Shown here: one piece after another, positions 200-42,275 of the stretch | How positions within the stretch are numbered: the first letter of the stretch is position 1 | Layout of the letters: each line of letters begins with the position of its first letter | Assembly: GCF_017982655.1 (NCBI RefSeq) | Contig: NZ_JABXYX010000042.1 | Coordinates: forward strand, 1 to 57,746 | Direction of reading: 5' to 3' | Source of the DNA: Brasilonema sp. CT11 | GTDB lineage: Bacteria > Cyanobacteriota > Cyanobacteriia > Cyanobacteriales > Nostocaceae | DNA length: 57,746 nucleotides | Program-made: the position numbers and the translations under genes | Notes under the pieces: model-generated | The model's input: only the letters and a program-made list of their open reading frames with translations | Database searches by the model: none | Told to the model about the DNA's origin: nothing

Positions 200-1603
<1,404 letters not shown>

Positions 1604-1898: not shown

Positions 1899-3722
<1,824 letters not shown>

Positions 3723-3894: not shown

Positions 3895-4017
3895 AAATAC
3901 TCTATTTTTTTAGATAAAAATGTTTGGATGATTAGACATAATATTCTACATAAATTCTTTAATGAGAAATATTCTTGACTTCTCATATAACGATTATAAA
4001 TCATTTTTGATAAACAA

Positions 4018-4048
4018 AACCCCCGACTTCTTATATAAGTCGGGGGTT
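4018..4048 (-). terminator. Strong hairpin between vnfX-like gene and vnfDG
   Basis: Perfect 12-bp stem AACCCCCGACTT / AAGTCGGGGGTT with a 7-nt loop. On the minus strand it is followed by TTTTGTTTATC, which fits a Rho-independent terminator for the vnfE-vnfX transcript. It is about 195 bp after the vnfX stop and 320 bp before vnfDG, so it could also be a processing or attenuation stem in a vnfDG leader. T-rich flanks on both sides suggest that it may work in both directions. Confidence 0.75.
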
Positions 4049-4242
4049 CTAGGTTTTTCAATTATTGTAAATCAGATAGAATTGCTATCAAAGTCGATAA
4101 TCTTGGTTAATCTTCTTCTTTACCAAAGATTGAGGACTGTCGTCAATCATTCCATTTCTAGTTTTTCTTAATTGCATCCAACTTTTTGAAGCGTTCAATG
4201 GGTACAAAAAAGATGCAAGACAACCCTAGATTCAAAATTCCA

Positions 4243-4644
4243 TTATTCTTCATCATGGGAATATGCTAACTCATTCTCTTCCAGTTGCAGGGCTTTACGT
4301 AACATTGGTGGGGCATCACCGTTTAAACTTTGTACTAGCATATATAGAATATTGGGGATTGTATCATATTCTTGTGCTCTAATAGGAGTTACACCCTCCT
4401 TCATCAACTTGTTTCCTGCTGGTTTGCCAATAGCTTTAACATATACAATTCTGCAGTCAAGAACTGCTTTCATTTTTGGTGTAATCTTATCCTCATGGGC
4501 AGCTTCTTCTAAGTCGCCTTCAAAGGTTAAAGTCTCAACGAATTTAAATCCATCTTTAGAGACTTCATACACATCAATATCTTTTGCCAAGCCAAAGTGA
4601 GTGTTAATAAGGGTTCCGTCGCTTGTCGTAAAGGCTACTTTCAT
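4243..4644 (-). CDS. vnfX: NifX/VnfX-like FeV-cofactor precursor carrier
   Basis: 133-residue protein of the NifX/NifY/NafY small-domain family, which binds the NifB-cofactor or an iron-vanadium cofactor precursor on its way to the apo-dinitrogenase. It begins MKVAFTTSDGTLINTHFGLAKDI, the family signature with a metal-cluster-binding His16 (N/D-x-HFG). The RATE-like segment VTPIRAQEYDTIPNIL and the PPMLRKAL tail are also typical. It lies between vnfE and vnfDG on the same strand, which favours vnfX over a nifX paralogue. The upstream spacer contains a long inverted-repeat element. Confidence 0.85.
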   Translation of the reverse strand: MKVAFTTSDGTLINTHFGLAKDIDVYEVSKDGFKFVETLTFEGDLEEAAHEDKITPKMKAVLDCRIVYVKAIGKPAGNKLMKEGVTPIRAQEYDTIPNILYMLVQSLNGDAPPMLRKALQLEENELAYSHDEE

Positions 4645-4740
4645 TTATTGACTCCAGAAATTTGGTAATTGTTGTTTGTACTTTGTCATTTGTCGCTAAC
4701 CAAGACTTATGACGAATTAATCATGGTCATAGGAACAAGG

Positions 4741-4915
4741 GTGTAGGGGTATAGGGGTGTAAGGGTGTAATACCGTTTCACTTTAAGGTTGATACAAATG
4801 GGGGGCAGGGAGTAGGGGGAAAGAATTAGAAACCAATCATTTGTATCAGGGATTTCGTGAAATGGTATAAGGGAAATTAACTCTTTCTTTCCCTTGTCCC
4901 TCTATACCCCTACAC
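4741..4915. repeat. Nested inverted-repeat element over the vnfE stop
   Basis: Three nested arm pairs: GTGTAGGGGTATAG (4741-4754) with CTATACCCCTACAC (4902-4915), ATACCGTTTCAC (4770-4781) with GTGAAATGGTAT (4857-4868), and TGATACAAATG (4790-4800) with CATTTGTATCA (4838-4848). The whole can fold into one long stem and looks like a small non-coding mobile repeat. The vnfE stop codon lies inside its outer arm, so the insertion may have set the present vnfE C-terminus. Confidence 0.7.
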
Positions 4916-6361
4916 CTGCCCTGTTGGCGCAGCCGCCCTGAAAGGGCTAGGGGCTTGGTCGATTTTTTCATTCCACCAAGGAGCAGGTTTTCTGACTTGT
5001 TCCCACACAGGACTATACAAGGCTTTATACAATTCCTGTGCCATTTTCAGCATCCCTGCATAACCAGCGTAGGCATGATGACGTTCATGGTTAAGATCCA
5101 AAAAAGGAATCTTTGCTTTTAGTGCTGTGTATTGATTGCTAGCCCCGCCAACTAACATATCAGCTTTTGTATCTTTCAGTACCTGTAGTAATACATTGGG
5201 GCTTCCCTTTGACAAAACCATGCCATCTTGACCGAGCAATTGCTTAATTTTGGCTTTCTCGTCTGGTGTACTCTTTCTATCACTGGTAGCAACAACTTCC
5301 ATTCCTAAATCTCTGGCTGCTAAAATAATCGACCAACTTTTTACGCCACCACTATAAAGAACAATGCGCTTACCTTTTAACTGGGAACGGTAAGGAGTCA
5401 GGGCAATATCTAGGGCTGCGGTTTCTTCTGCAATAAGCCATTCTGTGCGTTCTTGAAGATAGCGTGAAGTGAAGTTATCCCCAAGAGATTCGCTTAATGT
5501 TGCTGCAATATTCCGTAAGCAACGATTTATGTTTTCCACACCGTAGAAAGATTCTTCAATGAAAGGAATTCCATAACGTTCCTGCATTGTTTTTGCAATT
5601 CCTAGTGATACATTCGAGCAAATCACTACATTCAACTTGGCACGATGAGCATAGCAAATTTCTTGATAGCGAGCATCACCCGTCATTTTGGAGAGAACAC
5701 GAATACCCAATCTATTGAACAGTGGCAAAACATTCCACATTTCACCAGCAACGTTGTATTCACCAATGATATTGATATCGAATGGTGTAGTAACTTCTGG
5801 TTCTGCAGTTCCAACTACATGTTCCAATAAAGCTTTACCACCGACGCGGTTACCTACATTTTTACTACCAATAAATCCAGGTGCATTTATATAGACAACC
5901 GGAATACCAATTTTTTTTGCAGCTGCTTTACAGATACTATCCATATCATCACCAATCAAAGCGGTGACACAGGTAGCATAGACAAAAACAGCCGCAGGAT
6001 TGTAGCGTTGAGCGATATCGAGAATACCTTGATGAAGCTTCTTTTCACCACCAAAAATGACATCATTCTCACTCAAGTCAGTGCTGAAACCTATTTTGTA
6101 TAATTCAGATCCCGAAGAAAGGCTACCACGATTTCCCCAGGGGTTGCGAGTGCAGGCAGCTGGACCATGTATTAAATGAGCAACATCAGTTATTGGTACA
6201 AGAGCAACCGTCGCCCCCTCAAAAGCGCAATTTCCTTGGGCTGCACCCGGTTGTGGTGGTTTTTTGCAAGGTTTCTTTTTCTTGCCCTCCAATTTATTCT
6301 GGTTATCTTCGCAGGCTGTTTCGTTGAGTTGTTTGTTGATTTGTACTTGAGTGTTTTTCAT
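4910..6361 (-). CDS. vnfE: V-nitrogenase cofactor scaffold subunit, NifE-like
   Basis: NifE/VnfE-family scaffold subunit, one half of the E2N2 complex on which the FeV cofactor is completed. Cluster-ligand-type cysteines are at about 45, 70 and 131 (YATCVTALIGDD), and a NifE-like Cys248 stands in VVICSNVSLGIA where NifD has its cofactor Cys. The cofactor His region of NifD is replaced by LDLNHERHHAYAGYAGM. Residues 24-38 form a Lys/Pro-rich tail. First gene of the vnf block, 266 bp before vnfX. It is called vnfE rather than nifE from its position. Its partner VnfN is not in the window. The C-terminal residues may derive from the repeat at the stop. Confidence 0.88.
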   Translation of the reverse strand: MKNTQVQINKQLNETACEDNQNKLEGKKKKPCKKPPQPGAAQGNCAFEGATVALVPITDVAHLIHGPAACTRNPWGNRGSLSSGSELYKIGFSTDLSENDVIFGGEKKLHQGILDIAQRYNPAAVFVYATCVTALIGDDMDSICKAAAKKIGIPVVYINAPGFIGSKNVGNRVGGKALLEHVVGTAEPEVTTPFDINIIGEYNVAGEMWNVLPLFNRLGIRVLSKMTGDARYQEICYAHRAKLNVVICSNVSLGIAKTMQERYGIPFIEESFYGVENINRCLRNIAATLSESLGDNFTSRYLQERTEWLIAEETAALDIALTPYRSQLKGKRIVLYSGGVKSWSIILAARDLGMEVVATSDRKSTPDEKAKIKQLLGQDGMVLSKGSPNVLLQVLKDTKADMLVGGASNQYTALKAKIPFLDLNHERHHAYAGYAGMLKMAQELYKALYSPVWEQVRKPAPWWNEKIDQAPSPFRAAAPTGQV

Positions 6362-6677
6362 GTCTTTCCTTGCGTTGAATAGGATGAGGTGAACAAAGAA
6401 GGAATGAGGAATAAGTAAAATACTTACAGCAGAATAGAAGCGTCCTGCATTTTAGACCTCAGTGTTGTACTTCATTTACTTGTAATGTGCTATATTATTT
6501 CTTTAGATCTTGATTGACATCTTGTGCCAATTTAAAAAAAATTCCTCCTTAGTGACGGTAATTTCGTTTTAGTGCAAACTATAAATTTAATTACTTATAA
6601 CTACTCAGTTATTAAATGGAATAAAAGGCTTTTCAATACTTTTATATATAGTTCTTGTTTATTTCCGCCATCTTCAC
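6362..6677. promoter_or_regulatory. vnfE upstream region with a candidate operator
   Basis: A 316-bp AT-rich gap without a gene, presumably holding the vnfE promoter. A perfect palindrome TAAGTA-AAA-TACTTA lies at 6412-6426, 51 bp upstream of the start; its right part resembles the AAATACTTGC end of the 34-bp motif found near the regulators. The full 34-bp motif is not present here by eye. Confidence 0.35.
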
Positions 6678-7484
6678 TTAGTTCTCCAAAATTAAAGGTG
6701 AGTCAAACCCATATTTCGTCAAGATTTGTTGTCCATTTTGGGAAAGAATATACATAGCCAACATCACTGCATAACTGCGGGCATTCTTCATCAAAGTCAT
6801 ACCATAATTAGCATTTACTACCAGATGTTCTGGTAATTCCACTATTTGCATACTCGGGGAAGCTAAAACAGCTAACCTAGCATCGGTACGGTAGCTTAAA
6901 AAGATATCTACCTGTTGTGTTTCAGTAATGAAGTATGCAATTTCGTTCTTTCCCTTGGGAACAACAGGAGAATTACGCCCACCTATCAAGCGCAGTGCTT
7001 TCTGATTTAGCTCGTGAAAGCTACCTAGTTGTACTTTTTCAGCTTTACGAAATATCTCCTGTGCGTAGTCCCCAGAAGCATCTTCATTTGGTGTTGATGT
7101 TCCTAATCTGATTTCTGGATTTAACATCCAATCTAAAAGATTATTTGGCGTCACCTTGAAACTGGGTTTGACAATTGCACACATTTTATTCCTGATGAAA
7201 TTCACTACAGGACTGCTTTTATTAGCTTTGAGCAAAACAGTCGGAATTTCCATATTAACGCTAACAAATATATCGCTATGTTCCCCACTCAAAAGACGTT
7301 TTTGCAGCAAGGCAGAATGGTCAAATTCAATCTTTATAGAAATGTTGTGTTCTCTAGCAAAAGCTTGTGCAATTTCTGAGATAGCACCTTTTAAAGTACC
7401 AGACGTGTATAGGGTAACTGAAGTCTGATAATCTTGATTCCAAAGGATTTGTTGTTTCTCATTGAACTGTATCGATATCCCCAT
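6678..7484 (-). CDS. ModA-like oxyanion-binding protein, no signal peptide
   Basis: Bacterial solute-binding protein of the ModA/WtpA type (SBP_bac_11 fold). Family marks are TLYTSGTLKGAISEIAQAF near the N-terminus, DIFVSVN, MCAIVKP and GTSTPNEDASGDYA. Relatives bind molybdate, tungstate or vanadate in the periplasm, but this one has no hydrophobic signal sequence or lipobox, so it should be cytoplasmic. Start set at MGISIQF because AGAGGTG stands 6 nt upstream; a 12-residue longer reading exists without a good RBS. It is upstream of vnfE on the same strand (316-bp gap). No ModB or ModC permease genes are nearby. A metal buffer or sensor role is inferred. Confidence 0.75.
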   Translation of the reverse strand: MGISIQFNEKQQILWNQDYQTSVTLYTSGTLKGAISEIAQAFAREHNISIKIEFDHSALLQKRLLSGEHSDIFVSVNMEIPTVLLKANKSSPVVNFIRNKMCAIVKPSFKVTPNNLLDWMLNPEIRLGTSTPNEDASGDYAQEIFRKAEKVQLGSFHELNQKALRLIGGRNSPVVPKGKNEIAYFITETQQVDIFLSYRTDARLAVLASPSMQIVELPEHLVVNANYGMTLMKNARSYAVMLAMYILSQNGQQILTKYGFDSPLILEN

Positions 7485-7508
7485 AAATACACCTCTTTTT
7501 AAGATTAA

Positions 7509-7582
7509 ATGGCATCGCATTAGACTATTTACTACGATTAAATAAATGGATTTTTGTGTTGTAAATAAAAAGGCGATGCCAT
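7509..7582 (-). promoter_or_regulatory. Inverted repeat upstream of the ModA-like gene
   Basis: Perfect 10-bp arms ATGGCATCGC (7509-7518) and GCGATGCCAT (7573-7582) bracket 54 bp just upstream of the gene. This could be an operator pair or a 5'-leader stem; no U-tract is present. Confidence 0.4.
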
Positions 7583-7770
7583 CAAGAACTGTGTTGTAGC
7601 CACTGCCGTCCTTCTGCGTTTTTAATGTGAAGAGGAAAGATAGGGGAGTGGTAGTAAAAGGAGTAACCAGATGGGAGAGCCAGAAGGTATTCTATAGCGT
7701 ATTTACCCCACATCCCCCTATCGGCAGAAAACCTGTCAAATAGCAATTTTCAACTCTTGGGAAAACACAC

Positions 7771-8019
7771 TGTCGATCAGTTTTTTCTCTGAGTGTGAGA
7801 ATTAGAGGAAATGGGAAAGGGAAATTCCCTTCCCCCCAGTTGGATACACCTAACCCAACAGAGTTAGATGCGCCTCATCCAGCAAGCTTTTATATGTCGA
7901 TCAGTTTTTCTCTGAGTGTGAGAATTAGAGGAAATAGGAAAGGGAAAATTCCCTTCCCCCCAGTTGGATACACCTAACCCAACAGAGTTAGATGCACCTC
8001 ATCCAGCAAACTTTTATAT
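7771..8019 (+). repeat. Tandem duplication of a 124-bp unit
   Basis: Units 7771-7894 and 7895-8019 are almost identical, beginning TGTCGATCAGTTTTT and ending near CTTTTATAT. Each contains a GGGAAA/TTCCC hairpin and a TAACCCAACAGAGTTAG palindrome. No credible gene is encoded, and the rest of 7590-8300 shows nothing further recognisable. Confidence 0.85.
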
Positions 8020-8328: not shown

Positions 8329-8362
8329 GCAAGCATAGCATACATCTTGCAAAAGTATTTGC
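8329..8362 (+). promoter_or_regulatory. 34-bp iterated motif, site A
   Basis: Begins GCAAGCATAGCATACA and ends GCAAAAGTATTTGC. First of three same-orientation sites upstream of the RHH-Mop gene. Consensus from the copies: GCAAGyATAGyATACA, two variable bases, then TwGCwAAAATACTTGC. Confidence 0.65.
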
Positions 8363-8382
8363 TTTTTTTAAATTTTTTTGCG

Positions 8383-8416
8383 GCGACCATATTATCTATT
8401 TAGCAAAAATACTTAC
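8383..8416 (+). promoter_or_regulatory. 34-bp iterated motif, site B
   Basis: Begins GCGACCATATTATCTA and ends TAGCAAAAATACTTAC, starting 54 bp after site A, which puts it on nearly the same helix face. More degenerate in the left half than sites A and C. Confidence 0.55.
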
Positions 8417-8433
8417 TAAAGCTGGATTCTGTA

Positions 8434-8467
8434 GCAAGCATAGTACACAGAATGCTAAAATAATTGC
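8434..8467 (+). promoter_or_regulatory. 34-bp iterated motif, site C
   Basis: Begins GCAAGCATAGTACACA and ends TGCTAAAATAATTGC, starting 51 bp after site B. The following 285 bp up to the RHH-Mop gene are AT-rich with no other gene. Confidence 0.6.
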
Positions 8468-8751
8468 GTTAACACAGATACTTTGCCTGCACATGTCTTA
8501 TAATTACGCTCTAGCTTGTAGGATACGAGCTTCTTATCCTACAAACGCCTACTCTACTCTTCAAGAAGCCCCTATCCTAGAGAAGCGCCTGACAGCGTTA
8601 TCTCAATAAAGTATAGATTGTTACTTAAAAAAATAGTTACTCCAATTCCAAGAAAATTAAAAAATTGTTTTCTTTTGAACAGTCATTTGTGCTTAAATAA
8701 TTATTTTGCCGAAAATTAACAGTTAGTATAAGATTACCGAAGTAACAATAT

Positions 8752-9249
8752 ATGCCAAGAAAAAATCAAGGATGGATCACATTTCAAGTCTCAGATCAAG
8801 AGCGAAAAATTCTGGACGAATTATCTAAAAAGTTGCAATGCACTAAAACGGCAATTCTTCGGGAATTAATACGCGGACTTGAATTCAATTCTTGGCGATA
8901 CGCGAAGCGTCAAGCCTCCGGCTTATCGCCCTTTGGGCGGCTCCCTGCTGGAGCATCGCCACAATCAATACCAACCAAAAAGCAATCAGAAAAAAACGCT
9001 GATACTCACTATATAGATATCACTAGTTCCAAAAAACCTCTGAAAATTAGCTCCCATAATATTCTTCAAGGTGTAGTCACACAAGTTATTCGCACAGAAG
9101 TAAGTACTCAGGTAACTTTAAAGGTTGTTCAGGAAGTAGATTTAACTTCGATTATTGCCACTACCTCAGCAGATGAATTGGAGTTACACGAGGGAACAGA
9201 AGCTTATGCGCTGATTAATCCCTGTGTTATTTCTTTAGGTATCAAATAA
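8752..9249 (+). CDS. Ribbon-helix-helix protein with molybdate-binding Mop domain
   Basis: Two recognisable parts. Residues 8-45 look like a CopG/Arc-type ribbon-helix-helix DNA-binding domain (GWITFQVSDQERKILDELS, then a helix with TKTAILRELI). Residues 97-161 are a Mop/TOBE-type domain (KISSHNILQGVV, VTLKVVQEVDLTSII, HEGTEAYALINPCVI), the fold that binds molybdate or tungstate in molbindins and ModE. Residues 49-71 are encoded by a GC-rich palindromic repeat and look like an in-frame insertion forming a linker. A metal-responsive transcription factor is inferred. It is close to the vnfR-like gene on the same strand and is flanked by both clusters of the 34-bp motif. Confidence 0.8.
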   Translation: MPRKNQGWITFQVSDQERKILDELSKKLQCTKTAILRELIRGLEFNSWRYAKRQASGLSPFGRLPAGASPQSIPTKKQSEKNADTHYIDITSSKKPLKISSHNILQGVVTQVIRTEVSTQVTLKVVQEVDLTSIIATTSADELELHEGTEAYALINPCVISLGIK

Positions 9250-9337
9250 TAATCCAACCTCGTTTTTCCCTTCTTTTTCAACTTCAACATCAACTAACAA
9301 AATGTCCAATTGATTTACTGTAAAAAGCAAAAATTCG

Positions 9338-9371
9338 ACAAGTATTTTAGCAATTAGTATACTATTCTTGC
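9338..9371 (-). promoter_or_regulatory. 34-bp iterated motif, site D
   Basis: Reverse-strand copy reading GCAAGAATAGTATACTA at its start and TAGCTAAAATACTTG-like at its end. It lies between the RHH-Mop and vnfR-like genes. Confidence 0.6.
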
Positions 9372-9391
9372 TACAAGTGAATAAAAAAATG

Positions 9392-9425
9392 GCAAGTATT
9401 TCTGCTAAATGTATGCTATACTTGC
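9392..9425 (-). promoter_or_regulatory. 34-bp iterated motif, site E
   Basis: Reverse-strand copy beginning GCAAGTATAGCATACA and ending GCAGAAATACTTGC, one of the best consensus matches. It is 54 bp from site D, repeating the A-B spacing, and 136 bp upstream of the vnfR-like start. A half-site TAGCATACA also occurs at 9476-9484. Confidence 0.65.
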
Positions 9426-9560
9426 AGTAGGATAATTTAAATTGTAAAATCATTAGCAGGTCTTCCAACACAAAGTAGCATACACGCTTAAGACCTTGCT
9501 ATTGCCTCGGTAGATAAAGTTTGTCCACTGCGGCTTTTTGTAACGGAGAGATACAGCCTC

Positions 9561-10901
9561 ATGAAGCAGGACGGCAGTCTTTGCAACAATCTGAAGTCAA
9601 TTAGAACTCGCTTGGGCATGAGTCAGCAAGATCTGGCTAATATAGCTGGCGTGACTCGTCAGACTATTAGTGGTGTGGAATCGGGACAATATGCTCCTTC
9701 AGTTGCTGTGTCACTGCGTTTAGCTAAAGCGCTTGGCTGCCAAGTCGAGAACTTATTCTGGTTTGAGGAAGATTTGCCGGAAATTGAGGCAATTCTGACT
9801 AAACCAGTCAAGAGTGGACAGCAATTGCGAGTTAGTCTAGCACGGGTTGGGGGTCAATGGATAGCTTATCCCCTCGTTGGAAACGATGCTTTTCGTATCG
9901 AAATGATTCCAGCGGATGGTGAGGCAGTTGCGGTTCGCGATCCTGTTGCTCCTCCTCCGGGGACTGCGTTCGTCGAAGATGTGCCGAAGGACTCAAACGT
10001 GCCGAAGGGCGTTTGCGAAGCGCGCCCTATGCCTAACGACACGCTTCCGCTATCGGCGCTAGCTGTGCCGAAGGCTCAGGCATACCCGAAGGGGTCCCCC
10101 GTCAAAAGCAAACAGCCTCACCCTCCGGGTGAGGCACAAAGTAAGACAGGTATAAATAAAGTCCAAGTCAGGCTTTTAGATGACATGGACAAACTACACA
10201 ATACAGTCGTGATAGCTGGTTGTACACCTGTGATTTCCCTGTGGGCGAAAGCCACCGAACGTTGGCATCCCCAGTTGCGAGTCCATTACAACTTTGCTAA
10301 CAGCATGGCAGCATTGCGTAGTCTAGACCGAGGTGAAGTACATATTGCAGGGATGCATCTGTACGATCCACAAACCGGGGAATATAACATTCCCTTTGTC
10401 CGGAAAGCTTTAGGAGGTAAAAATGCTGTCTTGATTACCATTGGAATTTGGGAAGAGGGATTACTAGTTCCACAGGGAAACCCAATGGGAATTAAGACAG
10501 TTCCTGATTTGGTGGATTTAGGAGCAACTATTGTTAACCGTGAACCAGGTTCTGGCAGTCGGATGCTTTTAGAACAAAAACTCCAAGACAAACAAGTGCC
10601 ATTCCACACCCTCAAAGGATTTGACCATATCGTCCATAGCCATAAAGATGTTGCTTTATCCATAGTCTCAGGAATTGCTGATGCAGGTGTTAGTACAGCA
10701 TCTATAGCTACTGCCTTTGGGTTGGGATTTGTTCCCCTCCATCGTGCACGATACGACTTGGTAATTCTTAAAGAATACTTGGAAGAAGCACCAGTACAGC
10801 AGTTGCTTAGTACTTTGGGACATCGGCTAGTCCAATCCCAATTAGAGGTTCTCGGTGGCTATGACATCAGCAAGATAGGAGAAGTTGTAGCGAGTATTTA
10901 G
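9561..10901 (+). CDS. vnfR: XRE-HTH repressor with PBP-like metal-sensing domain
   Basis: Residues 8-64 form an XRE/HTH_3 domain (LKSIRTRLGMSQQDLANIAG, then TRQTISGVESGQYAPS). Residues 212-446 form a periplasmic-binding-protein-like domain of the kind fused to HTHs in molybdate-responsive regulators (VVIAGCTPVISLWA, NREPGSGSRMLLEQ, GIADAGVSTASIATAFGLGFVPL). This architecture and its position match the VnfR1/VnfR2 repressors known to shut off vnf genes under molybdenum in Anabaena variabilis; the symbol is given on that basis, from memory and without alignment. Residues 138-196 are translated from an inserted palindromic repeat (recurring VPK units). Site E and a half-site lie upstream, suggesting autoregulation. 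Confidence 0.8.
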   Translation: MKQDGSLCNNLKSIRTRLGMSQQDLANIAGVTRQTISGVESGQYAPSVAVSLRLAKALGCQVENLFWFEEDLPEIEAILTKPVKSGQQLRVSLARVGGQWIAYPLVGNDAFRIEMIPADGEAVAVRDPVAPPPGTAFVEDVPKDSNVPKGVCEARPMPNDTLPLSALAVPKAQAYPKGSPVKSKQPHPPGEAQSKTGINKVQVRLLDDMDKLHNTVVIAGCTPVISLWAKATERWHPQLRVHYNFANSMAALRSLDRGEVHIAGMHLYDPQTGEYNIPFVRKALGGKNAVLITIGIWEEGLLVPQGNPMGIKTVPDLVDLGATIVNREPGSGSRMLLEQKLQDKQVPFHTLKGFDHIVHSHKDVALSIVSGIADAGVSTASIATAFGLGFVPLHRARYDLVILKEYLEEAPVQQLLSTLGHRLVQSQLEVLGGYDISKIGEVVASI

Positions 10902-10926
10902 GAGTGAGCAAATAAATTTTCCATTA

Positions 10927-10960
10927 GCAAATAAATTAGCGATATCTATGCTAAGCTTAT
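10927..10960 (-). promoter_or_regulatory. 34-bp iterated motif, site G, upstream of the second vnfR-like gene
   Basis: Plus-strand reading GCAAATAAATTAGCGATA then TCTATGCTAAGCTTAT; 22 of 34 positions match site E in the same orientation. It lies 131 bp before the second HTH start, matching the 136-bp distance of site E from the first. Confidence 0.55.
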
Positions 10961-11200: not shown

Positions 11201-11659
11201 GAACTGCGCAGAAATAACTTACCCATTCTCTGAAGAGGAAGAGAGAGTAATACTATTTTGAGGTATAATCCGATAGTTCCAGTCTCCATGAAATTCAGAC
11301 CTTTCTAAGCAGACGCTTGAAAGTTCTTTGTCACTTACCTTAATGCCCTTTTGGTACTGGTTTTCGTCAAGAGTAGCTTGAATTTTCAGTCCTTTTTTGG
11401 TAGTAGTGTTACCAATGAGGTTAATCACTACTTCTTTACTTGTAAGCGGTCTGCCTCGCCAATTTTCAGTAATATGACAGAACATACGATGTTCTATCTT
11501 ATTCCACTTACTTGTACCAGGTGGGAAGTGTGCAACCTGAATTGTCAATCCAAATTCGTTGGCAAGTTCCTGAAGTTGGGTCTTCCATAACCGCAGTCGA
11601 TACCCGTTGCTACCACCACAGTCTGCTGTAATCAACAGTTGTGTTGCACCTTCATACAA
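11200..11659 (-). mobile_element. ISAzo13-like transposase, C-terminal fragment
   Basis: The 146-codon frame (11219-11659) reads like the C-terminal half of an ISAzo13-family DDE transposase: LLITADCGGSNGYRLRLWK, HFPPGTSKWNKIEHRMFCHI and NWRGRPLTSKEVVINLI. The N-terminal half and the other IS end are absent. The right edge next to the vnfR remnant (GGAACTGCGCAGAAATAA) is probably the IS terminal repeat, so the insertion disrupted the second regulator and a later deletion removed the rest of both. Confidence 0.8.
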
Positions 11660-21032: not shown

Positions 21033-21809
21033 ATGACAGACTCAGCTACTCAAAAACGCTTAAAATTTCTCAACAGACAGCAACTCAAATTTTCTACACC
21101 TGATGCTTTAGCTTTATTTGCATTAGGGACATTCGCTTTGCACCTTCTCACCTTTTTTCTGTTGGTGTTGTTGTATGGTGCGTACTCCACGCTGAGTAAA
21201 AAAGAACCTCCCTCATTAGTGCAATTACAAGACGGTAAATCAATCAAAGCAATTCCCTTGGGAAGTCGGGAGCGCACTCCTCAAGTCGTGACGCGCTTTA
21301 TAAATGACACTATGATCTTAATGATGAATGCGAGTGGAAGCTTGCCTGCAACTACACCAGAAGAAGCGCGTGAACCCAAGATAGATTCAGGTGTTGATAT
21401 CCGTGCCGTCGGAAATGGACGAAGTAAAGTTACGACTGCTGCGTGGCAAGCTTCTGCCGCTTTATCCGAAGACTTTAGGAAAGAATTCTTGAAACTGCTT
21501 GCTGATACGACTCCTCAAGGGGTGTTCAAAGGTACAACTCAAATGGTGTTAACGCCCCTTTCGATTCAACCCCCTGTAAAAATTGCTGAAGGTAAGTGGA
21601 AGGTCAAAATGGTTGCAAATTTAACTGTGTTTGACCGGAGAAATAATTTAGGTGAAATTATCCCATTCAATAAAGAAATTTTTGTCCAGGCAGTTGAAGC
21701 TCCCGATCCACCAGTGCAAATGACGGGATTGACAGCAGTAATTTATGGAGTGCGAAGTTCTGGGTTAGAAATTTATGCGATTCGGGATACAAGTGAGGAG
21801 AATTTGTAA
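21033..21809 (+). CDS. VirB8/TraE-like assembly protein
   Basis: 258 residues. One membrane helix near the N-terminus (ALFALGTFALHLLTFFLLVLLY) is followed by a globular periplasmic domain, as in VirB8/TraE core-complex proteins. The C-terminal TAVIYGVRSSGLEIYAIRD strand fits an NTF2-like fold. Coupled to the VirB10-like gene by an ATG that overlaps the stop codon. Confidence 0.65.
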   Translation: MTDSATQKRLKFLNRQQLKFSTPDALALFALGTFALHLLTFFLLVLLYGAYSTLSKKEPPSLVQLQDGKSIKAIPLGSRERTPQVVTRFINDTMILMMNASGSLPATTPEEAREPKIDSGVDIRAVGNGRSKVTTAAWQASAALSEDFRKEFLKLLADTTPQGVFKGTTQMVLTPLSIQPPVKIAEGKWKVKMVANLTVFDRRNNLGEIIPFNKEIFVQAVEAPDPPVQMTGLTAVIYGVRSSGLEIYAIRDTSEENL

Positions 21810-23755
21810 TGAGTGAACAACTCAATGGTGCAGTAAAAAAAATAATTGATGAATCTGAATTGGATGATGAGGTTTGGCGCAGATTCAGCGAAAGTGATGC
21901 TGAGTTCGAGATTGATTGGGATGAAGGGACACTTGCCAAGTTATTGGATTTTGACGACGATAGTAATCCTGGTTCGACAGTCGTTACTGCTGAAGTAGCG
22001 CAGTCCCTACAAACTCAAACAGCGAATGCGAACACTAACGTCATCACTCAATCTGAGTTATTTGATGATCCTCATGCAGGTAAAACACAGCCTACTTTGG
22101 CGGGTAATCCCTTTGCCAAGTTTGGCACAGTGGGTTTGGGTTTGGGGGTAGTGTTTGTCACGGCTGCGTTTTTTCTCAACACAGTGATGAAGGGAAAGCC
22201 GAAGGCTGCGCCAGAAATGGTGAAGACTACGCCGAAACCTGAAATTGTTGCACTAGAGAAAAAAGAAGACAAAGCAGAAACTGGGAAGCTGAAGGCACAA
22301 CTTGCTCTAGGCAAGCAAGCCGAACAAATTAAAGCGGTGGAGGCTGCAAAGTCACCGAAGTCTACAATAAACGAGTCTCCGAAGGAGACACTGCCCAAAC
22401 GCACTATCCCTATCAACAAACCCAGTCCAACTCCGCACCTCCAACGTCCAGATCCAGCAGTTCAATTCATACCCCCTCGTAACCCACCTTCACATGATGT
22501 ATCAGAGCGTAGTTTTCCAGTTCGCCGGTTGCTTCCTCCAGTGGAAAACGTTGCCTTGAAACCAGTTCGTTCTGCTTTTAACAATGAACTACCCATAACT
22601 TCAAGTAAAAAATCCCCAAATGTGCAACAAGCTGACCCGTTTGCGAAGCATATGCCCGAAAGGCTATTAGAACAGTGGGTGGCGATGAGCCGCTTAGGGA
22701 GTTACGGTAGTGGTAAGAAGCAGTTGCAGACAAGCCTTGCAACTGCAACACGACCGCAAAGTGAATTTCCCTCTGCATCAAATGTACAGTCGTTCCCCCA
22801 GGAACTTGTTGTCGTTGCGCCTAAAGCAACGCCTGTGGTGTTCGCTAGTGAGGGTGCTAGGGATGTAGTTGCTCCTCAAAGTCCCTCTGCTCCCCCATTG
22901 CTTCCAGATCCAAATCTAGAAAAAAACATTTTGACTGGTAACCCCGTGCAGCAGTTAAGAGTGGGAATGACCGCAATAAATGATTCGGAATCTCAAATAT
23001 TAGATGAAAGAACGACGGTGCAGCAGTTAAGAGTGGGAATGACCGCAATAAATGATTCGGAATCTCAAATATTAAATGAAAGAACGACGGTGCAGCAGTT
23101 AAGAGTGGGGATGACTGCAAGAGGTAAAATCGCTACCCCAATGGTATGGGTTAACCCTAGTACTACTCAAACTAAATCCGATGGACGCAGCCAAGGAGAA
23201 GAAAATTTCGTGGTGCGTTTAACTCAACCTATCGTTGACGATGAAGGGTACGAAATTTTCCCAGCTGGTAGCGAGATTGTTTGCACCGTGCAAGGTGTTC
23301 ATCAATCGGGTTATACAACTGTGCAAGCAACCCGCCTGGTGGTGGATGGTCGAGAGTATGTCCTGCCAAAGGGCGCGATCGCTATTACTGGAAAAGGTGG
23401 TAATCCCCTCATAGCATCTCGTTACGGCGATAAAGGCGCGGAGATTGCTTCTAGAGATGCTACGGCGTTTGTCTTTGGTTCCCTTGCCAAAGTCGGTAAA
23501 GTCCTAAATGAACCTGATGAAACGTCCTCTTTTGCGAGTGTGGGAATTGGCGGCTCTACCAGCACAACTTCAATTAAAGGTAACAAATCTAACTTGTTGG
23601 GTGCAGTGTTGGAAGGTGGGTTTACTCCACTGACACAGGAGATATTAGCTCGTAATCAGGCAGCGCTGGCAGAGATTACCAAGCGAGAAGATGTTTGGTT
23701 CGTCCGCGCAGGTACTGATGTTCAAATTGTGGTTAACCAATCATTTGAATTGTAA
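21809..23755 (+). CDS. VirB10/TrbI-like channel protein
   Basis: 648 residues. A cytoplasmic acidic region (1-95), one membrane helix (GTVGLGLGVVFVTAAFFLNTV, about 108-128), a long Pro/Lys-rich periplasmic linker, and a C-terminal TrbI domain from about 460 (FPAGSEIVCTVQGV, ATRLVVDGREYVLPKGAI, RAGTDVQIVVNQSFEL). It spans both membranes in the core complex. The linker holds a 24-residue tandem repeat (three units, the last partial). Larger than many VirB10 proteins because of the linker. Confidence 0.82.
   Translation: MSEQLNGAVKKIIDESELDDEVWRRFSESDAEFEIDWDEGTLAKLLDFDDDSNPGSTVVTAEVAQSLQTQTANANTNVITQSELFDDPHAGKTQPTLAGNPFAKFGTVGLGLGVVFVTAAFFLNTVMKGKPKAAPEMVKTTPKPEIVALEKKEDKAETGKLKAQLALGKQAEQIKAVEAAKSPKSTINESPKETLPKRTIPINKPSPTPHLQRPDPAVQFIPPRNPPSHDVSERSFPVRRLLPPVENVALKPVRSAFNNELPITSSKKSPNVQQADPFAKHMPERLLEQWVAMSRLGSYGSGKKQLQTSLATATRPQSEFPSASNVQSFPQELVVVAPKATPVVFASEGARDVVAPQSPSAPPLLPDPNLEKNILTGNPVQQLRVGMTAINDSESQILDERTTVQQLRVGMTAINDSESQILNERTTVQQLRVGMTARGKIATPMVWVNPSTTQTKSDGRSQGEENFVVRLTQPIVDDEGYEIFPAGSEIVCTVQGVHQSGYTTVQATRLVVDGREYVLPKGAIAITGKGGNPLIASRYGDKGAEIASRDATAFVFGSLAKVGKVLNEPDETSSFASVGIGGSTSTTSIKGNKSNLLGAVLEGGFTPLTQEILARNQAALAEITKREDVWFVRAGTDVQIVVNQSFEL
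22946..23119 (+). repeat. 72-bp in-frame tandem repeat in the VirB10-like gene
   Basis: Units begin at 22946, 23018 and 23090, each starting GTGCAGCAGTTAAGAGTGGG. The first two differ by a single base (D/N); the third is partial. They encode VQQLRVGMTA plus a 14-residue spacer. Confidence 0.9.
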
Positions 23756-23797
23756 ATAACCTCTGTGTATGTACGTACAAAAATGAGCTAGAGGCTT

Positions 23798-24622
23798 ATG
23801 AAAAATTCCTTTAGACGATTTACTTTTGGCGCTTTTATTTTCACTATTCTAATTGCTGGAGGCACTGCTGATCTGGTGTCTATGGCAGCTGACACTCAAG
23901 AACCGGGAATGGTGCGGCGGGTATCAGTATCGGTAGCAACGGATCAAACAGGTGAAAAGCTAACCACGATTGAATTATTGCCGGGGTATGGCGTTAACTT
24001 ATCTTTCATCCCCACTGGAGAAACAGTGCAGAAGGTGTGGTTTGATAACCCAGCCATCGCCTCACTTGATGTTGAAGGTTGTCTTGAGGGGTTAGGGCGT
24101 GAGTGCGAACAAGAAGGAGCAAGCGTGCTACACCTGCGCTCGATAAAACCTATGAATATTCCAGGTTTACGCAAGACAAATAGCTCACTGCTCACGGTAA
24201 TTACTAACGGTTCAGATGGGCGCAGGGTGTACTTGTTTCGAGTCGTCGTGGCTGACACCGCTTCTGCAAGAAATCACGTCCATACGGTCGAAGTTTTCCC
24301 AGACGCTGCATCCTCACCATCAACACCAACGCCATTACCTTCAGTGATTGGTGCCCAAGGAGATTTTCATCAGATCCGTCGTGGGCTAATGGTTGCTTTA
24401 AACCGACGTTTAATCAATGAGAACTCGGTGCTGTGGAATCGCATTGTTAGTTTTTTGGGAAAGGTACGTTTAGGTGAACCACTTTCACAAGCAGCACAAA
24501 CAAGTGGAATTTCTCTGCAGCTGGTAGCGAAGTTGCAAGAATTCGGTAATATCTCTAACTCTAACCTTAATTCAACTGTTAACAATACCTCAGTACAAAG
24601 AACAGATATTTTGTTAAGATGA
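23798..24622 (+). CDS. VirB9/TrbG-like outer-membrane complex protein
   Basis: 274 residues with a signal peptide (FGAFIFTILIAGGTADLVSMAA). The middle domain is beta-rich (RRVSVSVATDQTGEKLTTIELLP; VYLFRVVVAD) and resembles the N-terminal domain of VirB9/TraK-type secretion proteins. The C-terminal 80 residues are helical. The next gene overlaps by 4 nt. Assigned mainly from context after VirB10. Confidence 0.55.
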   Translation: MKNSFRRFTFGAFIFTILIAGGTADLVSMAADTQEPGMVRRVSVSVATDQTGEKLTTIELLPGYGVNLSFIPTGETVQKVWFDNPAIASLDVEGCLEGLGRECEQEGASVLHLRSIKPMNIPGLRKTNSSLLTVITNGSDGRRVYLFRVVVADTASARNHVHTVEVFPDAASSPSTPTPLPSVIGAQGDFHQIRRGLMVALNRRLINENSVLWNRIVSFLGKVRLGEPLSQAAQTSGISLQLVAKLQEFGNISNSNLNSTVNNTSVQRTDILLR

Positions 24623-26481
24623 AACTTTTCAAATTTCTTAATACAATTGGTCTTTGTCTACCGATTTCAATCCTTGTTTTGATTGGGATAATACCAGAAA
24701 ACGTCCTATCTCAACCAAATACTGTACCCATTCTCAACAGTAAAAGTCAACCAACTCTTTTAGATTCTATTCCCACCACTACTTGGAACGGCGCAAAATT
24801 ACCAAATTGGGTAAACATTACTTTTAATGAAATGCCAGGAATTAGTGATAGTGGCAGTTTCATTGCTCCAGAGGGAGTGCAAGACCAACTGGGCTACGAC
24901 CCCTCACGTACCTGGAGTGTTGGTCAAACACCAGACCAGTACATGATGTTAGGGGACTTCCAAGATAGTTTCAAACTTCAAAATTTTAGCTTGAGTGAGA
25001 TTTCCAGTCTGACTGGATTGGATTTAAGTAAAGTAAAGTTAGATGGTTTTGGAGTGATAAAATTGCAAACTTTAGGCAGTTTAGTTAAGGCAATTCCATC
25101 ACTTAATCAAGTCCTAATAGCCGATATTCAACCTGTATTCGACCTGCTAAAATCTCAATTAATAAGCCCTGTTGACCCTGCAATTAATATTGGTCAATTA
25201 CTAAAGCAATCTCCCCATTTACAAAACTTAGAGTTTAAGTCTCTACCAATGGATGGTTATGGACTTGATGCAATTCCAGGTTTAGAACAAACCTCCATTG
25301 CTGCCTTTAAAGATTGGCAAGGGGTAAAAATTTCAAATATCCCTGGATTGAATAAAGTGCCATTCAATGAATTTCCCAACCCCATTAATGCTGTTGGAGG
25401 AACAGTTGGCAAGGTGGATATTGCTTTTGGAACAGACGAACAGCAACGCGAATACACTATTTCAGGTAGCCATAAAGAAGGCTTTGCTGTCCCATGTCAT
25501 AAAGATTGCGCTCACGTTGAATTATCTGGTGGGACGAATGTTTTGGGTAAAGCATGGGTCAGTGGTAAGTATCAATTGGTGAATGGTGGTAAAGGGTTTA
25601 TCGGTTCAGTTAATAGCGGCAAAGAACCTACAGGTCGTCATCCTTTTGGTTCTGCTTTTAAGGTTGTGGTATGGGATGTTTCGGAAGTAGATGGCATCAT
25701 GAGCCAAGCTTTGTTTTTCAGGGTTTGTATGCGTAACAAGTTTGTTGATTTGGGCTGTACACCCTATTTTATAGGTCCCGTTCCCTTTATGACTTACAAA
25801 GAAAAAGAACCCATCTTTTTAGGGTTAATAACCGGAGGTGATGAAAGTTCAGTTTCCACGCCTACAGGGTTGAAGAGTAGTGGATTTCGGTTTAAAAACT
25901 CCACTAATGCATCGCTGAATAAGTTATCTAATTTACTGCCAGCAATTAAAGGAGATTGTAAGAAACTTCATTCATCGGGTACAAATATCAATGCTTTGAG
26001 TGCTGCTTTATCAAGCATTGAGGGAAACTATGATTCGGTGGGTAATTACGTGTGCGATTCTTTTGGTAATTGTGGTCGGGGACTCGGTACAATGCAATTT
26101 ATGTCCTACCGCCCAGATGTGCGAAGTATCATCACCTCCAAAAATGGTGGTGCAGAATTTTTAACTCGTGTGGAGAAGGGTGAACTGGTAACGGGTGAAG
26201 AAATGGTGCAGTATTTCTCTGCTAGTGACCAGGAGGAGTTGTTTGCAAAGGATGCTACTACTTTGCTTGATCTTGCTGCTTCTGAAATTGACCCAACGAC
26301 GGGACAACCCTTTACTGGAGAGCGATTAGTTCAACGAGCCGCACAGATGTACTTTGGAGGCGCTGCAATATCCATTGACGGCGGGATGAGCGACATTCAA
26401 GGCAAGCTCAGTGTTAAGGGTTACGGCGAAAAGGCGGCTGCATCCTATCAGGGTGCGATGCAACTTATGGGGTGCAGTTAG
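24619..26481 (+). CDS. Secreted protein with C-terminal lytic transglycosylase domain (VirB1-like)
   Basis: 620 residues with a signal peptide (LCLPISILVLIGIIPENVLSQ). The middle (about 60-330) is a cyanobacterial domain with repeated DGFG/DGYGLDAIPGL motifs. The C-terminal 170 residues contain ALSSIEGNYDSVG, with the likely catalytic Glu, and GLGTMQFMSYRP, the SLT-type lysozyme signature. It probably opens peptidoglycan for the mating channel. The fusion to the large N-terminal part is unusual; the overlap (ATGA) ties it to the VirB9-like gene. Confidence 0.7.
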   Translation: MKLFKFLNTIGLCLPISILVLIGIIPENVLSQPNTVPILNSKSQPTLLDSIPTTTWNGAKLPNWVNITFNEMPGISDSGSFIAPEGVQDQLGYDPSRTWSVGQTPDQYMMLGDFQDSFKLQNFSLSEISSLTGLDLSKVKLDGFGVIKLQTLGSLVKAIPSLNQVLIADIQPVFDLLKSQLISPVDPAINIGQLLKQSPHLQNLEFKSLPMDGYGLDAIPGLEQTSIAAFKDWQGVKISNIPGLNKVPFNEFPNPINAVGGTVGKVDIAFGTDEQQREYTISGSHKEGFAVPCHKDCAHVELSGGTNVLGKAWVSGKYQLVNGGKGFIGSVNSGKEPTGRHPFGSAFKVVVWDVSEVDGIMSQALFFRVCMRNKFVDLGCTPYFIGPVPFMTYKEKEPIFLGLITGGDESSVSTPTGLKSSGFRFKNSTNASLNKLSNLLPAIKGDCKKLHSSGTNINALSAALSSIEGNYDSVGNYVCDSFGNCGRGLGTMQFMSYRPDVRSIITSKNGGAEFLTRVEKGELVTGEEMVQYFSASDQEELFAKDATTLLDLAASEIDPTTGQPFTGERLVQRAAQMYFGGAAISIDGGMSDIQGKLSVKGYGEKAAASYQGAMQLMGCS

Positions 26482-26489
26482 GAGCAATT

Positions 26490-27053
26490 ATGCAGTCAAT
26501 AATCAATCGTTTTCCCCTTGTTAAGTCCCCATACCATCGAGTACTACTGGCGTTGGCGTGTGTGGGTTTGTTTGTGGTTCCTGCCTTGTTCGTTAGGGTG
26601 ACTTCATCAAGGAATCGTGACATAGCGCTTACTTGGAAAGCAGCTCAAGATATTGTACCCGCATCACTTATTCAAAAGACTATCACTCAGAACTCAACTG
26701 GTGGTGTCGATGCGAATAAGGTGAAAGTTTTGCAAGTTCCCAACCGAGGCAAAGGAGCATTATTCATCTTTGATTTTCAATCGCCGCAGTTGTGCGGCGC
26801 GGGTGGTTGCTTATATGCGGTTTACCACGAGTCGGGTAGCCTGTTGCTAAATGCGATCGCTAACCCCAAATTGCCTAAAGGAGAAGCATTGTTCAAAGTA
26901 GATGACGTGGTGCGCAATAGTTTCTCTTGTTTGGTTATCACGCAGACAACGACAACCCCTCTGATGGTATCGCGTACCCAATATTGCTATCAAGGCACAG
27001 GTTTTGTGCGTGTTTATGAGGAGCTAACTCCAATGAAACAGAGTTTAAATTAA
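26490..27053 (+). CDS. Hypothetical membrane-anchored transfer-operon protein
   Basis: 188 residues with one N-terminal membrane helix (VLLALACVGLFVVPALFV), then a predicted periplasmic domain with a CGAGGC pair and further Cys (FSCLVI, TQYCYQ), possibly disulfide-bonded. Start placed at ATG 26490 because TAGGAG lies 6 nt upstream; a GTG six codons earlier overlaps the previous gene. No family recognised. Confidence 0.6.
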   Translation: MQSIINRFPLVKSPYHRVLLALACVGLFVVPALFVRVTSSRNRDIALTWKAAQDIVPASLIQKTITQNSTGGVDANKVKVLQVPNRGKGALFIFDFQSPQLCGAGGCLYAVYHESGSLLLNAIANPKLPKGEALFKVDDVVRNSFSCLVITQTTTTPLMVSRTQYCYQGTGFVRVYEELTPMKQSLN

Positions 27054-27066
27054 AATTAATGACGTT

Positions 27067-28920
27067 ATGAATAGTACATTAAAATATCAATATGTTGCCA
27101 TCGCCCCAACATCTTCACAATCTTTATCTCGCATCACCGACCAGTTAAAAAGCGTGCTCAAAACCCAGTCTGGGTTAATGTTGCTAAGCTGTTTGGTAGT
27201 GGTAGGTGTTTTTTCTGCCATGAGCAGTGCCAGAAAGAAAGGCAAGATTGCCACGAGTTACTGGGGTGGTGCAAAAGAACGAACGGCTGCTTTAAAGAAA
27301 GCTAAAAAGCAGATGAAAAAGACGACTCGCAACAACGTAGCGCTGTATGTAGGTACGCCTCAACAAATGCGCTCAAAGTTGGAGTCAGAGTGGCGTTCTC
27401 AAGGGTTGCTTAAAACCTCTTTTCCTACCTGTAGGACTTACGCATTGCCCTCACTCAGTGCTTGCCCTACACTGTACGTCCCTGATGCCCAAAGAGGAAT
27501 TGCTGCTATCGGTGCAGCAGGTTCGGGTAAGACTTTCAGCGTCATTGACCCCTTAATCAGAAGTGCCTTTGACCAAGGTTTTCCTGTGTGTTTGTACGAC
27601 TTTAAATATCCTGCCCAAACAAAACGAGCCGTTGCCTATGCGATGAAGCGGGGCTATACGGTGCGCGTGTTTGCGCCGGGATTCCCAGAGTCAGAAGTAT
27701 GCAATCCCCTGGACTTAATCAAAGACGAAGAGGATGCAATTTCGGCTGCTCAATTAGCGCAAGTGGTATCTAAAAACTTTAACAAGGGTGGCGCAGACGG
27801 TGGTGGCGACAAGTTCTTTGAGGAAGCAGGCGATTCCCTTGTGGAGGGTATTTTGCTGGTGACGAAAGCGATCGCCACCCTCACCGGAGATGACAAATAC
27901 TGCGACTTGATGACAGCCCAAGCCATTCTCAGCTTACCGAAGTTGCCAGCTCGCTTAGAAGCTGCATCAAAGTCTAAGCTGAAGGTGTGGACTACTCGCC
28001 CGCTTTCTCAACTAATCAGTGTAAAAGATTCGGAAAAAACTGCTGCGTCCATTATCGGTACTGCCCAACGGATGTTTCAGCGCTTCCTCAAACGCGATTT
28101 TGTTGGAGCATTCTGCGGCAAGACAACCCTCCCTTTAGACTTGGATGGCAAGCAGCTGATTGTATTTGGGCTAGACCGGAATAACCGCGATATCGTAGGA
28201 CCACTCTTAGCAGCAATCTTGCACATGATAGTATCGCGCAATGTGTCGCGCACCGTGCCTCGTAAAGACCCTCTGGTGGTGTCACTGGATGAATTACCCA
28301 CCCTGTATTTGCCAGCGTTAGTAAATTGGCTCAACGAGAACCGAGAAGACGGATTTGTGGGGATTTTGGGCTACCAAAACATTTCACAGTTGGAGAAAGC
28401 CTACGGCAAAGAGTTAGCGCGGGCAATTTTGGGAGGTACGGCGACGAAGTTTATATTTAACCCGCAAGACCCGGAGAGTGCCAAATTATTCTCAGACTAC
28501 TTAGGTGAGATGGAGGTTAACTTTAAATCCAAGTCTCGGAGTACGGGTAAGGGTGGGGTGTCTACTTCACTTGCAGAGCAAAACCAAAAGCGGCATTTGT
28601 TCGAGGCGGCGGAGTTTGCGAAGTTGGGAACTGGTCGTGCTGTCATTATCAACCCAGCTTATACTCGTGGGAATGAAGCTTATGTGCCGTTGCTGCAAGC
28701 GGTGAAGGTTCCAAAAGCTGACATCAAGGAAATGAACTGGGCAGAGAGTAAGTGGGATGTGATTCGCTTACGACTCGTTGCTCAAAACTCTGGAGGTATT
28801 GTCACCGATGCAGAACGCTCTCGTCAATTCAGCGAGCGATTGGCATTGGCTGAAGAATTATTTCCGATACCAACCCAGCCTCTAGAGGTAACAGCGGAAG
28901 AATTAGCAGGTGTTTTTTAA
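27067..28920 (+). CDS. VirD4/TraG-like coupling protein
   Basis: 617 residues. Couples the relaxase-DNA complex to the mating channel. One N-terminal membrane helix (LMLLSCLVVVGVFSAM), Walker A GAAGSGKT at about 148-155, Walker B LVVSLDELPTL at about 403, and TrwB/TraD-type motifs (GILGYQNISQLEKAYG). The 3' end is partly duplicated in the spacer. Last clearly recognised member of the transfer operon. Confidence 0.88.
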   Translation: MNSTLKYQYVAIAPTSSQSLSRITDQLKSVLKTQSGLMLLSCLVVVGVFSAMSSARKKGKIATSYWGGAKERTAALKKAKKQMKKTTRNNVALYVGTPQQMRSKLESEWRSQGLLKTSFPTCRTYALPSLSACPTLYVPDAQRGIAAIGAAGSGKTFSVIDPLIRSAFDQGFPVCLYDFKYPAQTKRAVAYAMKRGYTVRVFAPGFPESEVCNPLDLIKDEEDAISAAQLAQVVSKNFNKGGADGGGDKFFEEAGDSLVEGILLVTKAIATLTGDDKYCDLMTAQAILSLPKLPARLEAASKSKLKVWTTRPLSQLISVKDSEKTAASIIGTAQRMFQRFLKRDFVGAFCGKTTLPLDLDGKQLIVFGLDRNNRDIVGPLLAAILHMIVSRNVSRTVPRKDPLVVSLDELPTLYLPALVNWLNENREDGFVGILGYQNISQLEKAYGKELARAILGGTATKFIFNPQDPESAKLFSDYLGEMEVNFKSKSRSTGKGGVSTSLAEQNQKRHLFEAAEFAKLGTGRAVIINPAYTRGNEAYVPLLQAVKVPKADIKEMNWAESKWDVIRLRLVAQNSGGIVTDAERSRQFSERLALAEELFPIPTQPLEVTAEELAGVF

Positions 28921-39782: not shown

Positions 39783-40016
39783 TTATACCTCTGCAAGGAG
39801 ACTCCCGCCAGAGACGTTTTGCTGTCTTGGTTAGTGTAAGAACCATAAGTTCATTTATACCTCCGCAAGGGGACTCCCGCCAGAGATTTGCTTGGCGGTA
39901 GTGGTATTGGGACGATTGAAGGGATTCGATGTCCCTTTTTGAAAACCTGAACATTAGAAGCTTGCGTGACATACCCCCTCACCAAATCAAAAATGATGGT
40001 GTGGAGACTCCCGCCT
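39780..40016. other. oriT: Candidate origin of transfer
   Basis: A 35-bp sequence occurs at 39780-39814 and 39852-39886 with two mismatches (core TTTATACCTC and GACTCCCGCCAGAGA); GGAGACTCCCGCC recurs at 40004-40016. The second copy leads into a CCGCCA-N10-TGGCGG hairpin (39877-39898). Location at the start of the relaxase gene fits an oriT; no nick site is proven. The first copy contains the relaxase RBS and start. The next 40017-40637 shows no gene. Confidence 0.45.
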
Positions 40017-42219: not shown

Positions 42220-42275
42220 GAAAAAACTTTTGAGCTATATAAGTTCATGGTTTCCAAACTTTCCGGAGGATTTTT

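Follow-up and report, generated by a model that had tools for sequence, protein, structure and literature searches.

What reads a 34-bp element that is repeated around two putative metal-regulator genes in the cyanobacterium Brasilonema sp. CT11? The stretch of DNA considered here (the window, 57,746 nucleotides) is contig C306 of the 8.79-Mb genome and carries genes of the vanadium (V) nitrogenase, a back-up nitrogen-fixing enzyme under molybdenum (Mo) scarcity. Three copies of the element (A, B and C) lie ahead of a gene for a ribbon-helix-helix (RHH) protein with a Mop domain, two (D and E) ahead of a paralogue of the regulator gene vnfR, and one (G) ahead of a vnfR remnant. An original prediction, made from the sequence alone, had proposed an operator for either the VnfR-like or the RHH-Mop protein. 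Here, we argue that the element combines an operator for VnfR-family repressors with the core promoter under its control, a reading to which comparative sequence analysis leads us to assign a probability of about 0.8.

The six sites match one another, as had been claimed, and differ in quality: A to E are strong or fair, while G is degenerate. A, C, D and E are recovered in the window by the originally proposed consensus with at most 3 mismatches (0/100 shuffles matched), whereas B and G carry 6 and 8 mismatches, respectively. When scored with a matrix refined on 108 distinct cores, the weaker B and G still reach 24.5 and 36.0 against a top control score of 1.6 in the window, and both have counterparts in relatives. 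The reported spacings (54 and 51 bp for A–B–C, 54 bp for D–E) are correct, and G is placed like E, at 131 bp before the vnfR remnant as compared with 136 bp before vnfR. Two short open reading frames (ORFs) overlapping the sites had been dismissed as mere translations of the repeat. A Pfam search with them matched no family, and both are interrupted in most of five relatives (loci L031, L032, L033, L072 and L073), which supports that view: orf8301 has stops in four and is open in L031 alone, while orf9235 is interrupted by stops or breaks in three (L031, L032 and L073) and reads through in L033; in L072, its sole match is a cross-match to the other array.

A genome-wide scan, which had been proposed as a check, places the element at very few positions. 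The strict pattern (at most 3 mismatches) has five matches in 8.79 Mb, namely A, C, D, E and a site ~225 bp before the vnfR gene on contig C75, with none for the control. A relaxed pattern recovers A, D, E and G plus two sites on C75, the one before vnfR and another ~480 bp ahead of a DUF2231-cox-nifH run; these six, its only matches, are all at vnf-related or cox-nifH loci. The copies could instead belong to a dispersed or duplicated repeat that has no regulatory role, as small repeats of the dispersed kind abound in the genome (one lies inside the RHH-Mop gene) and the A and D–E regions share a 62-bp imperfect inverted repeat. We give this idea almost no chance of being right: the six relaxed matches all precede vnf-related genes, orientation and distance are fixed in 67 loci of relatives (see below), and conservation across many genera already contradicts it.

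That conservation is clearest at the VnfR loci of relatives. With VnfR as the query, the best 80 of 88 matches were kept and 79 loci were fetched. A matrix built from the six own-genome copies gave 116 matches at a score of at least 18 in 83 loci (1.37 Mb), against 0 for two control matrices, and the refined matrix gave 143 (control 0). Within the 76 loci that encode a full or nearly full VnfR (the partial matches L105–L107 were left out), a refined-matrix site lies at most 700 bp upstream of VnfR in 67 (reversed-matrix control 0/76), a count weakened by the fact that this matrix was trained partly on VnfR loci it then scores. These sites share one orientation (67/67) and lie at a median of 135 bp before the start (interquartile range 133–139). 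The six-site matrix, which is blind to the 76 loci, finds 43 of them at score 18, all 43 in the shared orientation, and 59 at score 12, 57 of these in the shared orientation, with no control match in either case. Beside A, an alignment of six loci shows a conserved leader with a variable far part, partly via repeats.

Across genomes, the presence of the motif likewise follows VnfR. VnfR (E ≤ 1e-60) was found in 116 of 217 family genomes, the relaxed motif in 90 (backward-pattern control 3) and RHH-Mop-like proteins (E ≤ 1e-12) in 184. VnfR and motif co-occur in 86 genomes, with VnfR only in 30, motif only in 4 and neither in 97 (Fisher p 5.6e-29); thus, 86 of the 90 motif-bearing genomes have VnfR, and two of the motif-only genomes (G110 and G130) have C-terminal VnfR fragments with 80–83% identity. 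In a 388-genome sample of the class, the motif was present in 0/364 genomes outside the family and 5/24 within it, while the control matched one genome (G125).

The original alternative between two binders can therefore be narrowed: the VnfR half stands and the RHH-Mop half does not, because RHH-Mop is far more widespread than the motif. Binding by RHH-Mop, a Mo-binding ribbon-helix-helix regulator, instead of VnfR would suit its Mop/TOBE domain as a molybdate sensor and the three sites that precede its gene both in the window and in L031, L033, L072 and L073. At the locus of an own-genome RHH-Mop paralogue (L030), the six-site matrix also gives one weak match (9.4). We nevertheless consider this highly improbable. 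The 9.4 match is at the level of two stray matches in the window, and the refined matrix detects no site at L030 at a score of at least 6. The motif does not follow RHH-Mop: 96 of the 184 RHH-Mop-bearing family genomes lack it, and it is present without an RHH-Mop match in G108 (72% complete) and G212. Furthermore, L032 retains A- and B-type sites, its C site having decayed and RHH-Mop being undetected at the annotation threshold, and the N-terminal RHH domain of RHH-Mop itself stays under the Pfam cut-off.

The neighbouring regulator, in turn, fits the VnfR type, combining a helix-turn-helix (HTH) with a binding-protein-like domain and being kin to proteins encoded beside vnfH and vnfV-vupA. 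Among solved structures, its N-terminus matches CylR2 best (E 3.6e-12) and also matches the phage 434 repressor (E 1.9e-4). Residues T32, R33 and Q34, which presumably sit in the recognition helix, are invariant in 29/29 VnfR sequences, as expected if VnfR paralogues read one site. An AlphaFold2 model of VnfR built from 29 sequences was too poor (mean predicted local distance difference test score 51, predicted template modelling score 0.40) and was not used.

Read toward its target, the element has the form GCAAGTAwwTTnGCAAnATGTATGmTATnCTTnC. The left block forms an imperfect palindrome of 14 bp (GCAA-N5-TTnGC), which would lie in the -35 region and be followed by TGnTATnCT, a sequence of extended -10 form. 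Sites with another site in the same orientation 30–200 bp downstream were classed as auxiliary (n = 24), the others as proximal or single (n = 161). The full TGnTATnCT occurs in 111/161 proximal or single sites and 1/24 auxiliary sites (L041, which may be misassigned), and TGnTAnnnT in 155/161 versus 6/24 (Fisher p 7e-10), whereas A3, A4, A7, T10, T11, G13 and C14 of the left block are kept at no fewer than 21 of the 24 auxiliary sites. Because the -10 is mostly kept in proximal copies and largely lost in auxiliary copies that retain the left block, A and E can be read as combined promoter and operator sites; B, C and D resemble auxiliary operators. Read on the minus strand, A has its extended -10 at about 8340–8332 and a predicted leftward start near 8326–8324; on the plus strand, that of E (TGCTATACT) is at 9414–9422, with a start predicted near 9428–9430.

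An outer GCAAG/CTTGC inverted repeat was also considered as the main palindrome, being the top dyad of the matrix. Its right-end TTGC is seldom kept in proximal sites (52/161, versus 18/24 auxiliary sites), which favours the 14-bp left palindrome; the right half of the element may hold a second, weaker contact. Soon after the predicted starts, stem-loops are found (for example, at window 9426–9535), some with AGGTCTT/AAGACCT-type arms. Stems of at least 8 bp occur in 36/143 leaders as compared with about 9/143 mononucleotide shuffles, a roughly fourfold enrichment.

An extended -10 in fixed orientation would also suit a motif whose main role is to promote or activate vnf expression in heterocysts or under nitrogen stress, with an activator as its binder and VnfR binding elsewhere. 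Other factors do activate the promoter of ava4025, the gene that precedes vnfDG in Anabaena variabilis, in heterocysts, according to the part of the review PMC4284476 available to us. We regard this explanation as unlikely. A general heterocyst or nitrogen element would be expected before nif genes genome-wide, whereas all six relaxed matches in Brasilonema sp. CT11 are at vnf/vnfR or cox-nifH loci; the motif is absent in 97/101 VnfR-less relatives; and auxiliary copies retain the left block without the -10. The box of NtcA, given as GTAN8TAC in the same part of PMC4284476, is present in 0/6 window sites and 2/108 cores. One GTAN8TAC lies at window 8611–8624, between C and RHH-Mop and outside the motif copies.

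The roughly five-turn phasing, from which cooperative binding on one face of the DNA had been predicted, is kept in relatives: auxiliary sites lie 50–56 bp from the next site in 17/24 cases and 97–111 bp in 7/24, although these 24 sites stem from 11 loci of few lineages and are not independent. Hidden middle sites in the 97–111 bp gaps were looked for and rejected, as only L072 (4.1) and L073 (9.0) scored above zero and 5/7 gaps fell below.

How might such sites work? That a VnfR repressor system exists is already known. In the part of PMC4284476 available to us, VnfR1 and VnfR2 of A. variabilis are described as Mo-dependent repressors of ava4025-vnfDG. It also reports in vitro binding of VnfR1 to DNA upstream of the ava4025 promoter, expression of vnfDGKEN from this promoter, and a resemblance of the ava4025 product to a periplasmic molybdate-transport protein. 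For Brasilonema sp. CT11, we infer VnfR occupancy of the sites, their promoter role, cooperativity and the response to metal. In the presence of molybdate, VnfR would bind the element and exclude RNA polymerase; without molybdate, the promoter would open and other factors would give heterocyst expression. A would drive the leftward run of a solute-binding protein (SBP) gene, a vnfE-like gene, vnfDG and vnfK, while E would drive vnfR, giving an autoregulatory loop. Lying roughly five turns of the helix upstream of the next copy in each case, B, C and D would be auxiliary operators at which further VnfR dimers bind cooperatively on one face. As C lies just behind a TATAAT that may belong to RHH-Mop, the A–C array may serve both directions.

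Which genes carry the element? It had been tied to regulator genes, which holds for vnfR and proves too narrow: in relatives, it is also found before ava4025-like, vnfH-type, vnfV-vupABC, modABC-vnfR, nifB-like and cytochrome-oxidase genes. It had also been reported missing in front of vnfE and vnfDG, which is right as regards adjacency; yet A–C are the sole matrix sites upstream of the leftward SBP-vnf run, with A ~810 bp upstream of the SBP gene. Genome G211 is laid out as SBP-vnfDG-K-E-N, vnfR1-vnfV-vupABC and vnfR2-vnfH, with vnfH more than 20 kb from vnfN. Sites are found in it ahead of the SBP gene, of both vnfR genes and of a vnfE-like gene, the last with two sites 100 bp apart. This is the vnf layout of A. 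variabilis, with which G211 is probably identical, and it places a site upstream of the probable ava4025 orthologue; because of synteny with G211, the window SBP gene would be an ava4025 orthologue as well.

On the Nostoc plasmids C052 and C057, sites precede nifH (vnfH-type) and vnfR genes, and one lies ~1.1 kb ahead of a DUF2231-cox cluster, from which a transposase gene separates it; C057 has a further site ~450 bp before modD. Locus L142, covering vnfK and the next component 1 stretch, has no matrix site. In 14 of 20 stretches hand-picked among the relaxed-pattern matches listed (genes named by similarity and order), the sites face nitrogenase, metal-transport or vnfR genes: nifH-type 6, nifB-like 2, vnfR or a relic 2, and modABC-vnfR, vnfV-vup, SBP, and vnfR plus a vnfE-like gene 1 each. 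L161 has a modABC-vnfR run (3965–7902; gene names from similarity) and, 91 bp ahead of modA, a site through which VnfR may also control molybdate uptake. L150 (4011–4044) and L151 (4140–4173) each have a site ~0.9 kb before a nifB-like gene, followed in L151 by ferredoxin- and NifS-like genes. L028 (1487–4177) encodes a VnfD-like protein of 896 residues that has a CAAD domain at its C-terminus along with weak VnfG stretches, and adjoins a nifH and a cox cluster.

Besides the partial circularity of the refined matrix, which also scored the sites of the -10 comparison, and the non-independence of the auxiliary sites, several points weigh against the assignment to VnfR. Nine of the 76 VnfR loci are without a site (two of the nine have <500 bp of upstream DNA). 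Among the VnfR-bearing genomes, 30 of 116 are without the relaxed motif, perhaps in part because the relaxed pattern recovers only 75% of known cores. Of the motif-only genomes, G113 lacks any VnfR match and that of G147 is weak (33%), and the association of motif and VnfR is partly linkage, since many sites adjoin vnfR. Sites in L155, L156, L157, L158, L162 and L164 and the third site of L168 face no obvious target, while a site ~440 bp before vnfD on C052 and C057 faces away from vnfD, toward a TetR gene. Finally, the available part of PMC4284476 reports in vitro binding by VnfR1 only, not VnfR2, and binding "upstream of" the ava4025 promoter could mean that the true start lies downstream of the extended -10 proposed here.

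At slightly less than even odds, we would go further. The 34-bp unit may be a combined promoter and operator whose arrays grew by unit duplication and -10 decay, with the palindrome and five-turn phase kept, so that VnfR and its units form a Mo switch across heterocystous cyanobacteria for V-nitrogenase, vanadate and molybdate transport, extra nifH and nifB genes and a dedicated cytochrome oxidase. The literature searched, available as excerpts, yielded no printed VnfR operator sequence, array or regulon, and among the papers searched VnfR1 is named in PMC4284476 and PMC6645180 alone; Pratte et al. 2013, the primary paper on VnfR1 and VnfR2, may print the motif. As far as seen, the promoter-embedded operator, the phased arrays, the divergent shared array of the window and the wider target set are new. 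A defined site gives a genome-readable regulon and start-site predictions, provides a promoter-operator part for metal control and makes it possible to test how a single site is shared among paralogous repressors.

The features of the window are collected in the table below.

Table. Copies of the 34-bp element and neighbouring features, in window coordinates.
Feature	Position	Strand	Remarks
Site A	8329..8362	+	gene-proximal for the leftward SBP-vnf run; counterparts in relatives
Site B	8383..8416	+	putative auxiliary operator, 54 bp from A; extended -10 lost; counterparts in L031, L032, L033, L072, L073
Site C	8434..8467	+	putative auxiliary operator, 51 bp from B; ~30 bp from TATAAT facing RHH-Mop
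Site D	9338..9371	-	putative auxiliary operator, 54 bp upstream of E; extended -10 lost
Site E	9392..9425	-	gene-proximal for vnfR
Site G	10927..10960	-	ahead of vnfR remnant; type as lone site before VnfR on contig C248
TATAAT	8499..8504	+	in block kept across six aligned loci; possible RHH-Mop -10
RHH-Mop gene	8752..9249	+	C-terminal TOBE/Mop domain; weak N-terminal RHH (RHH_1)
vnfR paralogue	9561..10901	+	HTH_3 N-terminus and PBP_like domain (Pfam)
vnfR remnant, first 39 residues	11091..11207	+	similarity to VnfR
Transposase fragment after vnfR remnant	11219-11659	-	
SBP gene (molybdate-type)	6678..7520	-	first of leftward run; probable ava4025 orthologue
vnfE-like nitrogenase component 1 gene	4910..6361	-	domain match
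Dinitrogenase cofactor-domain gene (Nitro_FeMo-Co)	4243..4644	-	domain match
vnfDG	1899..3698	-	component 1 domain and AnfG_VnfG
vnfK	200..1591	-	component 1 domain; position after vnfDG; 90% identity to post-vnfDG gene in G211

Left of A, the SBP, vnfE-like and Nitro_FeMo-Co genes, vnfDG and vnfK thus all lie on the minus strand, with RHH-Mop, vnfR and the vnfR remnant to the right of A–C. The closest named relative of the window VnfR is a Brasilonema angustatum protein, and the same genome has two further vnfR genes, a C75 copy that precedes vnfV-vupA and a C248 copy that precedes a vnfH-type gene (all named by similarity). An insert in the linker between the two VnfR domains (window about 9935–10150) is missing from short relatives, and the RHH-Mop gene carries an interspersed repeat (window 8895–8960) that matches ~40 other places in the genome. 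Conjugation genes share the contig with vnf (window 21809–28920 and 38010–43424), encoding a TrbI-like protein, a type IV secretion system coupling protein, a MobV relaxase and a weak TraL-like match; in Nostoc, C052 and C057 are conjugative plasmids that carry vnf genes. A cas1 gene is also present on the contig (window 51397–52524).

Among known systems, the closest is that of A. variabilis ATCC 29413, where, in the part of PMC4284476 available to us, VnfR1 and VnfR2 are HTH repressors encoded beside vnfV-vupABC and vnfH, a neighbourhood matched in G211. Compared with what that part describes, the window adds one more VnfR paralogue, which has two phased sites, as well as an array of three sites that separates SBP-vnf from RHH-Mop. 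VnfR also resembles the Cro/CI-type (HTH_3) repressors CylR2 and phage 434 repressor in its N-terminal domain and its proposed short palindromic operator. The operators of the 434 type are 14-bp palindromes with four-base arms. Unlike CylR2 and the 434 repressor, VnfR has a C-terminal PBP_like domain, and its proposed operator is joined to a -10 and repeated at ~52-bp steps. ModE, in turn, governs molybdate-dependent repression of metal-related genes. Among the Pfam matches of VnfR and RHH-Mop there is no ModE model, a comparison that concerns protein domains, the ModE box not having been searched for. The TOBE/Mop sensor domain is common to ModE and RHH-Mop only, whereas VnfR, with no TOBE match, combines HTH_3 with a PBP_like domain.

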